Source: a virus
IMG/VR virus record: IMGVR_UViG_3300007511_000061
Location: 1 to 35,551 of that record
Length of the DNA: 35,551 nucleotides
Direction: 5' to 3' (one strand)
Under the pieces are notes generated by a model. It saw only the letters and a program-made list of their open reading frames with translations. It had not been told where the DNA came from and ran no database searches. Positions 5,082-20,750 of this stretch are shown one piece after another. The position numbers and the translations under genes were made by a program. The first letter of the stretch is position 1. Every line of letters starts with the position of its first letter.

Positions 5082-5141
5082 TGTCGATATTGTCTATACC
5101 ACTAAGCTTCAATGCTAGTGATATCAACAGATAGAGACTTC

Positions 5142-5231
5142 TCACTTGTTCAAACTGAAGGAGTAATAAAAAGCCTCTAATCTGTTTGTTTCCAACGGAT
5201 GGTCAATGAATCCGAAAAGTTTATTGTCCAT
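5142..5231 (-). CDS. Possible 29-residue small protein
   Basis: An ATG-to-TGA frame of 29 residues beginning MDNKLFGFIDHPLE, with balanced composition and aromatic residues. It fills part of the 247-base gap between the primase-helicase and the nuclease-like gene on the same strand. No convincing ribosome-binding site precedes the ATG. Nothing is recognised; it may be chance. Confidence 0.3.
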   Translation of the reverse strand: MDNKLFGFIDHPLETNRLEAFYYSFSLNK

Positions 5232-5248
5232 ACGTTGTCTATAAAAAT

Positions 5249-5323
5249 GGAGTCCCTAAAAGCTCCACACTTTTCCAATTGAGACTCAACCTATAAAGAT
5301 TAATTAACAAATGATGGGACTCC
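5249..5323 (-). terminator. Hairpin with T-run after the primase-helicase gene
   Basis: GGAGTCCC (5249-5256) and GGGACTCC (5316-5323) form a perfect 8-bp inverted repeat starting six bases downstream of the primase-helicase stop codon. In the direction of transcription the second arm is followed by ATTTTTATAG. The loop is long (59 bases) and holds a smaller TTGAG/CTCAA repeat, so this is a weak or complex terminator candidate. Confidence 0.4.
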
Positions 5324-5328
5324 AATTC

Positions 5329-11590: not shown

Positions 11591-12904
11591 CTAGCTGACT
11601 ACCTCTGACTTCATTACAAACTCAATTCTATCTGCGAGATACCGCATACAAGGAACAGCCATACTGTTTCCAAGTGCTTTGTATCTTGGTCCGTCTGGAC
11701 AATCTTTAGATGCTTTACCCCTCCACGGAATCTGGGTCCAGTTATCAGGAAACCCCTGAAGACGTTCACACTCTAAAGGCATCAGCCTACGGACTACAGA
11801 GTTTTTAACGACATTCAACTCTTTGTCTCCAGTCTTTGCCCCCAAAGTTGGAGCAATTTCCATCTGTTCCAGTTTCCCAAACTGTCTCAACTGAGAACGC
11901 TGAAACGCAACCGCAGGAGGATTGTTTCCATGTTCTCCGATCTTGACTGGTGGAGTGATATCAGCATTCCAGTCTGGTTCACTCATGTTAGACGAGAAGG
12001 TCACAATCGGAGTATTACCTCCACCTGTTCCGTAACGTGCGGAAACTGTGGATGCCACTTCGCCCATATCCTTGACTCTAGAATCGTTTGGGTGGTTCTC
12101 ATAGACATGAGGAACTAGTCCAGCACCTCCCTGTGAGAATAACTCTTGGTTAGAAAATCCAGGTCCACCAGAGTTTGAAGTGGACTGGGCTAGGCTGGGA
12201 TGTGGTCCTCCCTCCCAATGGTTTGAAGTAGAGCGTTTTCCAGTAGTAAAGGTAAGCTCTTCCCTTTGTTTGCGGCCCTTCGCAGAATCCCAATACAAGC
12301 CATCGGTGACAGGGAATAACGCTTTGGCACATCGGAAGTTTCCAAGATTTGGTGTAGCGATGACAAAAACTCTCTTTCTTCTCTGGGGTACTCCGAAGAA
12401 CTGAGAGTCGAGAACGCGCCATGCAACTTGGCGTTTCGGCCCAGAGACCAAACCTGAACTGTCCCATCTTCCGTTTGGCTGGAGGGGTACACTTGCTCCT
12501 GAAAGCTCTGCCAAAAAGCATCCAAATGCGTTGTCTTTGCTGGAGAGGACACCTGGGACGTTTTCCCAGATAACCCAGTCTGGCTGGAATTTGTCTGCGA
12601 TTCTACAGAAGGTGAGTGCCAAGTTTCCTCTATGATCTTCAAGTCCTTTTCTTGTTCCAGCGATACTGAAGGATTGACAGGGTGTGCCTCCGACAAGAAT
12701 GTCAACTGTTCCATCGATACTCCATTGTTCGTAATTAGTCATGTCACCAAAGTTGGTAACGTGAGGATACCTCTCCTTCAAAAGTTTGGAAGGAAATGGT
12801 GCATTCTCAGAGAATCCAACAGGCTTCCAGCCTTTGGATTCGACTGCACAACTGAAGGCTTCAATGCCTGAGCAAACCGAAAGATAATTTATAGTCTGTT
12901 CCAT
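11591..12904 (-). CDS. C5-cytosine DNA methyltransferase
   Basis: 437 residues with the ordered motifs of the Dcm family: AdoMet-binding CSGIEAFSCA (motif I, residue 11 on), GGTPCQSFSIAG with catalytic Cys76 (IV), WENVPGV (VI, Glu114), RRKRVFVIA (VIII), a target-recognition region about 215-370, and ALGNSMAVPC near the end (X). It transfers a methyl group to carbon 5 of cytosine in a short DNA target, which cannot be read from the sequence. No restriction enzyme is adjacent, so it is probably an orphan phage methylase that protects against host restriction. GGAG ten bases upstream supports the start. It overlaps the upstream zinc-motif gene by 16 bases. Confidence 0.93.
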   Translation of the reverse strand: MEQTINYLSVCSGIEAFSCAVESKGWKPVGFSENAPFPSKLLKERYPHVTNFGDMTNYEQWSIDGTVDILVGGTPCQSFSIAGTRKGLEDHRGNLALTFCRIADKFQPDWVIWENVPGVLSSKDNAFGCFLAELSGASVPLQPNGRWDSSGLVSGPKRQVAWRVLDSQFFGVPQRRKRVFVIATPNLGNFRCAKALFPVTDGLYWDSAKGRKQREELTFTTGKRSTSNHWEGGPHPSLAQSTSNSGGPGFSNQELFSQGGAGLVPHVYENHPNDSRVKDMGEVASTVSARYGTGGGNTPIVTFSSNMSEPDWNADITPPVKIGEHGNNPPAVAFQRSQLRQFGKLEQMEIAPTLGAKTGDKELNVVKNSVVRRLMPLECERLQGFPDNWTQIPWRGKASKDCPDGPRYKALGNSMAVPCMRYLADRIEFVMKSEVVS

Positions 12905-13419
12905 ATCAACGGATCTCCTTTTCTAACTTCAGTCATGCGAGCCTTGGCTTCATTATACTGGTAGTTAGATTCCCAATGTGGATGAGTATCTGAAATCACT
13001 TCTCCGTTGTCTACAAAGATGCGTACCACTCTTCCGTTTGGGTACTCGCAATCAGTGTAGTATCGGATTTTCCTTTTCATGGGAGTTGGCTTCTTCCCAG
13101 GTCTACCCATGTTCAGACAACCGCAGGAACGAATTCTCCTTCTCATAAGGGGACTAGCTACGATGATTTTCTCTGTTCCACATTTACAGCGACACATGAA
13201 TTCGGCTCCATCTGGCTTTCTCTCGAAACTTGACCGGATGACCTTGTAAAGAGGAGTCAAGAGACTACCCTCAAGCTGTTTACCTAAAGGAACCTTGAGG
13301 GGAGTACCCTTCTTTGTCCTATCGTGGATAGCATCATTTCTTCTCCGCTTTGGCTTACCCTCAACAGGGTTCCGGTAGCGAGGTGAGTTTCTGGGGAATG
13401 GGTTTATGGATACAGACAT
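12889..13419 (-). CDS. Basic zinc-motif DNA-binding-like protein
   Basis: 176 residues with many Arg, Lys and Pro in the first 60. Residues 76-101 hold C-R-C-K-C-G, 17 residues, then S-C-G-C, a knuckle seen in many phage proteins of the AP2/HNH-associated kind. The C-terminal part reads as beta strands (RIFVDNGEVISDTHPHW). No nuclease motif is visible. AGGAGAG upstream supports the start. It lies directly before the methyltransferase and overlaps it, suggesting coupled expression. DNA or RNA binding is inferred from charge and the zinc motif. Confidence 0.65.
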   Translation of the reverse strand: MSVSINPFPRNSPRYRNPVEGKPKRRRNDAIHDRTKKGTPLKVPLGKQLEGSLLTPLYKVIRSSFERKPDGAEFMCRCKCGTEKIIVASPLMRRRIRSCGCLNMGRPGKKPTPMKRKIRYYTDCEYPNGRVVRIFVDNGEVISDTHPHWESNYQYNEAKARMTEVRKGDPLIWNRL

Positions 13420-13433
13420 TGCTCTCCTAAATT

Positions 13434-13598
13434 CATTACCAGAGTGTCAGATTAATTTGGTCCTGTTGCTGCTGGCAAAGCCAACCCAAATCAAGCATCC
13501 TTATATTGTCACAAAAAAACATTTTCTGTACTTCATCGGCCTTCGGAGCCTCAGTACTAATGTTTTAAATATATGGCTTCTCTGACACTCTGGGTAAT
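13434..13598 (-). ncRNA. Structured intergenic element with long terminal inverted repeat
   Basis: ATTACC-AGAGTGTCAGA (13434-13451) pairs with its complement at 13581-13598 with one unpaired base: an outer stem of about 17 bp. Two inner hairpins lie inside. One has the arms TTTGG/CCAAA around TGGC-AAA-GCCA (about 13457-13490). The other has AAAACATT/AATGTTTT and GTACT/AGTAC arms around GGC-CTTCGG-AGCC, a UUCG-type tetraloop (about 13515-13567). The whole folds as a three-way junction of about 165 bases that fills the gap between two leftward genes. It could be a 5' leader element of the 12889-13419 gene, a small RNA, or a short inverted-repeat mobile element. No target duplication is evident. 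The function is unknown. Confidence 0.5.
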
Positions 13599-13601
13599 CG
13601 G

Positions 13602-13856
13602 TTAATTTATTAATCCGTTTATTTCTTCCTGATTGTCAGATATCTGCTTTTCCTTGTCCCATTGCTTCTGGGTGATCTGCTTCAAATCAAGCGAAATCGT
13701 AAACTCAAACTTCGCATGATCAAAATCCGTCAAAGCCATGAAAAGGGCTGTAGTCAGAATCTGTTGAAGAGTGTCTTCCTTATCAAAAGACATGGCACAC
13801 ATAAGTTCCTTGCCATCCATACCAGCTAAACCTTTTGCCAGGATTAGTTTTTTCAT
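13602..13856 (-). CDS. Small hypothetical protein, 84 residues
   Basis: A perfect AGGAGG site sits seven bases before the ATG, and the ATG overlaps the stop of the upstream zinc-finger gene (ATGA), so it is coupled to it. The middle has alternating strands (FEFTISLDL), and the tail is Lys/Gln/Glu-rich. No family is recognised. Confidence 0.75.
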   Translation of the reverse strand: MKKLILAKGLAGMDGKELMCAMSFDKEDTLQQILTTALFMALTDFDHAKFEFTISLDLKQITQKQWDKEKQISDNQEEINGLIN

Positions 13857-14626: not shown

Positions 14627-14664
14627 TCAATTTATATAAGTACTTACGTACTTATATAAATTGA
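14627..14664. repeat. 17-bp perfect inverted repeat, possible bidirectional terminator or operator
   Basis: TCAATTTATATAAGTAC (14627-14643), a TTAC loop, then the exact complement to 14664. It covers the stop of the 68-residue gene and lies 27 bases upstream of the promoter for the next transcript. AT-richness gives a weak RNA stem, so a terminator, an operator for a dimeric repressor, or both are possible. Confidence 0.55.
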
Positions 14665-14997: not shown

Positions 14998-15199
14998 AAT
15001 TTCCTTACATAAGTTTCAAAAGCAGAGACTCTGTTTCAGCAACCAGATTGCTTATTAAGATCAGAAGGGCATATATGAATCACTGGTACTTGAACTGATC
15101 AGCCGTGTTATGAATCGGCTTATTCACTGGTGATCAGCTAATAAGATCCCTGCTTTATCTGGGGACCAGTCACCTTCCTTACCCTCTGCTTTTGAGTGG
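14998..15199. other. 202 bases without a gene; repeats and hairpins
   Basis: No plausible frame is present. The stretch contains an AGCCG/CGGCT hairpin near 15101-15120, an AGCAA/TTGCT hairpin near 15041-15055, and two copies of a CACTGGT...GATCAGC arrangement (near 15080 and 15126). It follows the radical SAM gene on the same strand and may hold a terminator and a leader for the small membrane gene. Confidence 0.4.
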
Positions 15200-19851: not shown

Positions 19852-20145
19852 CTATGAAATGATTTGATAATGATTTATTTGTTTTGTTATCCACCTATCG
19901 CAGTACTCTAGATGTTCTCCAGTACTGAAAGTGATGTTCGCTACTCTCTGTATAAAGCGAACTATTAGATGGTTGTTCTTTCTGGTGACAAACTGTCTCC
20001 AATCTGTCCCCTTCCATCGTTCTGCTTGTTCCCTTGCAAAGGATTCCATCTCATTCAGTAGTGCAACGGCATCCTCTCCTGAATACATATCAAGATGAAT
20101 CTCTTTGCGGACTCTTAACCCTTGATATTCTCTGACTTTAATCAT
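19852..20145 (-). CDS. Hypothetical protein, 97 residues
   Basis: The ATG at 20145 shares ATGA with the stop of the methyltransferase-like gene; an ATG four codons earlier is less likely. The protein has an amphipathic helix (VALLNEMESFAREQAERW) and a beta-rich second half (NHLIVRFIQRVANITFS). It is probably translated with the upstream gene. Unrecognised. Confidence 0.65.
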   Translation of the reverse strand: MIKVREYQGLRVRKEIHLDMYSGEDAVALLNEMESFAREQAERWKGTDWRQFVTRKNNHLIVRFIQRVANITFSTGEHLEYCDRWITKQINHYQIIS

Positions 20146-20750
20146 ACTGCACCCCACTGGTCAGCCATTGCTTTAGCGATTCCCTTGTAAGTTTTAGAAC
20201 GGAGTTTCCACCTGTCAGCACTAGGTGGGAGAGAGTGACAGTAGCCGAATCTACCTTCAACTACGTTGGTAGGTTCCAGTTTGGGCAAACCCTTCAACCA
20301 GAGACATGTCCGCTTTGTTTCTCCGTGTCCAAACTGCCAAGGCTGAATGGTTTGATTAGGTTTTCTGATCTTGGATGAGATCACAGAAACTGGGTTTTCT
20401 AATGCTATTTGAGGTATGTCTGCATCTAATAAGATGCGGACGAATTCAAGAGCTTCTTTCTGTTCCTTTCGTTTGTTCTTAAACCATCTTGCACCACTGA
20501 CCGCAAGGTGAGTGCAGGGAGGGTGAGCGATCATCAAATCCCATCCAAGATTAATCAGTTCAATCACGTTCCCTCTGTAGTGAGGGACAGATGGTTCCTC
20601 TGTAGGTAACAAGTCACAGGAGACCACAAAACAACCATTATCCTGAAAAGCTTTTGACACTGTTCCTGAGTGTTCACATGCTAACAAAACACACTTTTTT
20701 TCTTGTTCCTTTGCTATAGCTAAATACCTTTTTATTTCTGGAATAAACAT
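20142..20750 (-). CDS. Methyltransferase-like phage protein (C5-MTase-related, PPC motif)
   Basis: 202 residues. VLLACEHSGTVSKAFQDNG fits an AdoMet-binding motif I, C-D-L-L-P a second binding site, and GWDLMIAHPPCTHLAVSG with Cys79 resembles the PCQ catalytic loop of cytosine-C5 methyltransferases. IALENPVSV corresponds to the ENV motif, and QTIQPWQFGHGETKRTCLWL to a conserved later block. These short proteins are common in phages and are usually left hypothetical; whether they methylate DNA is not established. There is no target-recognition domain, so it may act with another protein or on nucleotides. AGGAAC supports the start, and ATGA couples it to the next gene. Confidence 0.7.
   Translation of the reverse strand: MFIPEIKRYLAIAKEQEKKCVLLACEHSGTVSKAFQDNGCFVVSCDLLPTEEPSVPHYRGNVIELINLGWDLMIAHPPCTHLAVSGARWFKNKRKEQKEALEFVRILLDADIPQIALENPVSVISSKIRKPNQTIQPWQFGHGETKRTCLWLKGLPKLEPTNVVEGRFGYCHSLPPSADRWKLRSKTYKGIAKAMADQWGAV

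Follow-up and report, generated by a model that had tools for sequence, protein, structure and literature searches.

The spacer between two leftward genes of an uncultured phage without a described close relative is closed, almost exactly, by a long-range inverted repeat. Our leading interpretation, offered tentatively and at less than even odds, is that this repeat lies in an untranslated stretch between cistrons of a polycistronic, leftward-running phage message, and that the stem probably serves RNase III-type processing or insulation in an early message, as judged from its predicted fold and position. The element is most simply regarded as an ordinary mRNA spacer structure and not as a new kind of RNA, unless relatives show covariation.

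Position and anatomy of the outer stem

The virus record is linear, and the window, i.e. the whole stretch of DNA analysed, comprises its 35,551 bases. Genes run leftward from ~4.6 to 22.2 kb and rightward beyond, with the terminase, portal and capsid proteins encoded in the latter part; the composition skew switches near 22 kb and shows no switch at the spacer (13434-13598). As the sequence-only reading had it, the element lies in a gap between leftward genes: the inverted repeat is located wholly between the ORFs 13856-13602 and 13419-12889 (Table 1). The near-perfect outer stem of 17 bp was likewise confirmed. On the minus strand, 13598-13581 pair with 13451-13435 through 17 pairs with one bulged C, including 13 perfect pairs between 13439-13451 and 13581-13593. 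These arms reach from the stop codon of the upstream ORF to just ahead of the next Shine-Dalgarno sequence. Pair probabilities computed in the transcript context were 1.00 and 0.85 for two tested core pairs and 0.40 for the pair at the outer edge.

Table 1. Features of the spacer and of the flanking genes (positions in the window).
Feature	Position	Strand	Remark
Upstream ORF	13602..13856	-	84 aa; no family, no relative found
5' arm of outer stem, ATTACCcAGAGTGTCAGA	13581..13598	-	begins 3 nt past stop codon of upstream ORF
Interior arm P2, interrupted hairpin	13499..13576	-	stability no greater than shuffles
Interior hairpin P3	13452..13494	-	stability no greater than shuffles
3' arm of outer stem, TCTGACACTCTGGTAAT	13435..13451	-	ends 6 nt ahead of AGGAG of downstream ORF
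Shine-Dalgarno-like AGGAG of downstream ORF	13424..13428	-	outside outer stem
Downstream ORF	12889..13419	-	176 aa; cysteine motif CRCKCG...SCGC

The downstream ORF extends into the beginning of a C5 cytosine methylase gene (11591-12904). Its product weakly resembles, over ~40 residues, part of a phage HNH-endonuclease family, matches none of the Pfam, NCBIfam and PADLOC toxin families, and is predicted to fold without confidence (pLDDT 43). The outer stem is not predicted to hide the start site of this gene, because the AGGAG motif is not part of the stem and is predicted to pair almost as before when the 5' arm is scrambled. A gating of the downstream start by simple masking is thus not what the predictions suggest.

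The outer arms account for the stability of the fold

On the minus strand, which is the gene-sense strand, the element folds with a minimum free energy of -51.8 kcal/mol (z -4.2), and none of 2000 dinucleotide shuffles was as stable. A good fold was also obtained for the plus strand (z -3.2); the gene-sense strand has the lower energy and contains three G-U pairs versus none on the other strand. The excess stability is due wholly to the outer arms. When only the interior was shuffled, 58 of 300 sequences folded at least as well as the real spacer, and two or more hairpins arose in 280 of them and a single hairpin in the other 20. Conversely, keeping the interior and shuffling the arms gave a mean of -37.9 as compared to -51.8 kcal/mol, and not one of 300 sequences was as good. 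The interior on its own (13452-13580) has a z of -1.0, with 34 of 200 shuffles equally good. Since shuffled interiors behave alike, the three-way junction itself carries no signal; the signal is the pair of arms. The nested complementarity, which had been considered unlikely to occur by chance, therefore does not exceed chance in the interior, and the comparison with shuffled controls bears out the fold as a whole while its interior adds no significance. As a lesson in method, shuffling arms and interior separately shows at once that the arms alone stabilise the multi-branched fold.

The UUCG-type tetraloop noted earlier is indeed present, as C(UUCG)G, only on the plus strand, the antisense strand of the two flanking genes; at this site the tip on the gene-sense strand reads GGCU-CCGAA-GGCC and has a 5-nt loop. 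No terminator-like hairpin occurs within 13434-13598. P3 directly adjoins the outer stem on the 3' strand, which gives 26 consecutive paired bases there, 9 bp of them contributed by P3, and from this prediction both could stack into a helix of more than two turns.

To what extent the arms themselves exceed chance depends on the comparison. A search across the window, which allowed one bulge or mismatch and arms 60-300 nt apart, returned a stem of at least 17 from 10 of 400 shuffled windows (2.5%); chance therefore has to be kept among the explanations for the arms. An end-to-end duplex as strong as the one in this gap was reached in 43 of 12000 shuffles, a rate to be read with 14 gaps of the window having been inspected. 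In a GC-corrected scan of 165-nt windows, the element ranks third (-2.8 sd). These statistics provide moderate evidence: the arms are unusual, not overwhelmingly so.

Other structured gaps

The gap 14999-15199, past the radical SAM gene, is closed on the minus strand by a perfect inverted repeat of 12 bp (15016-15195). This stem starts just past a stop codon and ends ahead of a 28-codon frame with a Shine-Dalgarno-like AAGGA; it is similar to the one at 13435-13598, and weaker. Its end duplex was equalled in 80 of 12000 shuffles, the limit of the gap having been set after sight of the 28-codon frame, and the whole fold reaches a z of only -2.0. The gap 5082-5328, ahead of a PDDEXK-like ORF, forms on the minus strand a row of separate hairpins (-74 kcal/mol, z -4.8), the first of which resembles a large-loop terminator, its 9-bp stem preceding a T run. 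Sequence matches of only 6-9 bases connect the element with 15016-15195 and 5082-5328. As a control, 13 gaps in three other phages were considered, in one of which a closing duplex reached the 1% level; such stems may hence be common or accidental.

Search for relatives

Neither phages nor 13 related virus records contain a match to the DNA of the element; one 29-base match in one plasmid is chance-like. There is no second copy within the window, and multiple copies were absent from window, phages, plasmids and related virus records. None of the 4227 Rfam models scored above threshold, nor did any at relaxed thresholds. The covariance-model search for homologues that had been suggested, run over all loci gathered, returned only the element itself. 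A search with the arm pattern gave nothing in viral contigs and one match in genome contigs (an actinomycete, L015), consisting of the arms alone inside a local repeat; we rejected it as a relative in favour of chance or local repetition, as by our own estimate about one such match is expected by chance.

The flanking proteins of 84 and 176 aa have no relative in viral contigs (pattern search) or in named phages. Contig searches with AAA ATPase, primase, terminase and radical SAM queries, and with a query in which the protein from 20142-20750 was aligned to its L011 copy, yielded no relative reaching the element: in viral contigs, only the radical SAM gene, the protein from 20142-20750 and the late region have relatives. 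Some late-region relatives are close, with terminase identities of 89-96%, and the contigs examined stop short of the element. As the collections are incomplete, absence of matches is weak evidence.

Interpretation and alternative explanations

Several observations support the assignment to a transcript spacer: position and orientation of the repeat, the core-pair probabilities, the stability derived from the arms, the gap-specific rate of 43 in 12000, the lower energy of the gene-sense strand, and the similar gap 14999-15199 (80 in 12000). It is weakened by the lack of a homologue, the contrast between a closed domain of 165 nt and the local hairpins that serve as RNase III sites in T7, the window-wide rate of 2.5%, the inspection of 14 gaps, the probability of 0.40 for the edge pair, the closed gap in a control phage, and the fact that no minus-strand promoter-like site placing a transcript start at the spacer was found upstream. 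The earlier proposal of a non-coding RNA or leader survives in part: a folded spacer or leader of a phage transcript fits the outer arms best, and the three-way junction on which it was built holds no signal. Once transcribed, the arms would pair, so that the spacer is tucked away as a single domain. With P3 stacked on the outer stem, the 26 consecutive paired bases on the 3' strand would be enough for a double-strand RNase, e.g. RNase III; the transcript is predicted to offer the long double-stranded stem typical of such substrates (17 bp with one bulge, plus the 9 bp of P3). By way of processing, the stem would probably set the upstream cistron apart from the downstream ORF and the methylase; alternatively, it may insulate the downstream start against upstream structure. 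If the stem is real, it is a further example of a phage early operon with structured RNA between its cistrons.

Known systems offer partial parallels. RNase III sites in T7 early mRNA are short local hairpins of ~60 nt. Like the spacer, they place a stable duplex between the cistrons of a polycistronic message made early by a phage, whereas the spacer stem is long-range and encloses ~130 nt in a closed domain of 165 nt, a putative substrate for cleavage. The processing stalks of bacterial pre-rRNA, also RNase III substrates, are long-range stems in which the two flanks of a domain pair with each other. The spacer shares this flank-to-flank design; in contrast to the stalks, no stable RNA product is known inside its stem. 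In retrons, the inverted repeats a1/a2 close the structured msr-msd RNA, which is of similar size. Here, however, no reverse transcriptase was recognised among the neighbouring ORFs in a family search, and a retron was rejected on this ground.

Accidental pairing of the arms, with no selection on the structure of the spacer, is the main competing explanation; we consider it rather unlikely, with a probability that is nevertheless appreciable. It is supported by the occurrence of a stem of this length in 10 of 400 shuffled windows, by the ordinary interior and by the lack of demonstrable conservation, and the choice of the most striking feature by the sequence-only reading introduces selection bias. 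What speaks against an accident is that the repeat coincides almost precisely with the ends of the gap in which it sits (43/12000), and that a second gap of the same operon is fitted similarly (80/12000). The arms might also be the terminal inverted repeats of a small non-autonomous, MITE-like element, or a remnant thereof, inserted in the spacer. Arms of 13-17 bp around ~130 bp of ordinary sequence are the plain anatomy of such elements, yet the spacer has neither a second copy in the window nor copies in related records or phages, the plasmid match covering only 29 bases. Moreover, the arm pair is absent from viral contigs (the L015 match being arms alone in a local repeat), the only candidate for a symmetric target-site duplication at the arms measures 3 bases, and no parent transposase was recognised among the window proteins scanned. 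The mobile-element reading raised earlier is accordingly improbable.

A discrete regulatory RNA, or a leader sensing a ligand or protein and controlling the 176-aa ORF and the methylase, would agree with the stable fold directly upstream of this gene pair. We give it a small probability, considering that no Rfam family matches even at relaxed thresholds, that the interior is no better than shuffled, that the Shine-Dalgarno sequence outside the stem has a predicted accessibility independent of the arm, and that a terminator-like hairpin is missing. A similarly low probability goes to a site acting at the DNA level, that is two inverted protein half-sites or a cruciform for replication or recombination. 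The repeat is equally present in DNA and the plus strand folds well (z -3.2), but the fit from stop codon to Shine-Dalgarno sequence points to RNA, and the composition switches near 22 kb and not at the spacer. We also rejected a group I intron or homing endonuclease (no Rfam intron match; upstream ORF ending before the element; downstream ORF with a pLDDT of 43) and a type III toxin-antitoxin RNA (ToxI), the hallmark of which is tandem repeats ahead of a ToxN-family ORF, given that the downstream ORF matches no toxin family and no tandem repeats are visible by eye. Finally, it is very unlikely that the operon follows an undescribed design in which several long spacers of a marine phage each have their two ends joined by a long-range stem (13435-13598, 15016-15195). 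If true, such closure would hold the stop codon near the next ribosome-binding site while the spacer folds away.

Repeats and hairpins elsewhere

Long inverted repeats in L003, L007 and L014 were inspected and rejected: those in L003 and L014 lie in coding sequence, and the one in L007 is a cluster of GGTCCCACT repeats. The latter cluster (7720-7990 of L007, a viral contig), situated between primase-like and radical SAM genes, is made up of GGTCCCACT-type repeats opposite copies in inverted orientation (AGTGGGACC); it is iteron-like and possibly an origin. Past the radical SAM gene, the segments 3019-3150 of L002 and 8880-9010 of L003 are GC-rich, contain several complementary segments and have a folded look. 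In the window itself, the ORF 14858-14652 has at its 3' end a hairpin (14627-14664) of 17 perfect base pairs and a 4-nt loop (TCAATTTATATAAGTAC / GTACTTATATAAATTGA).
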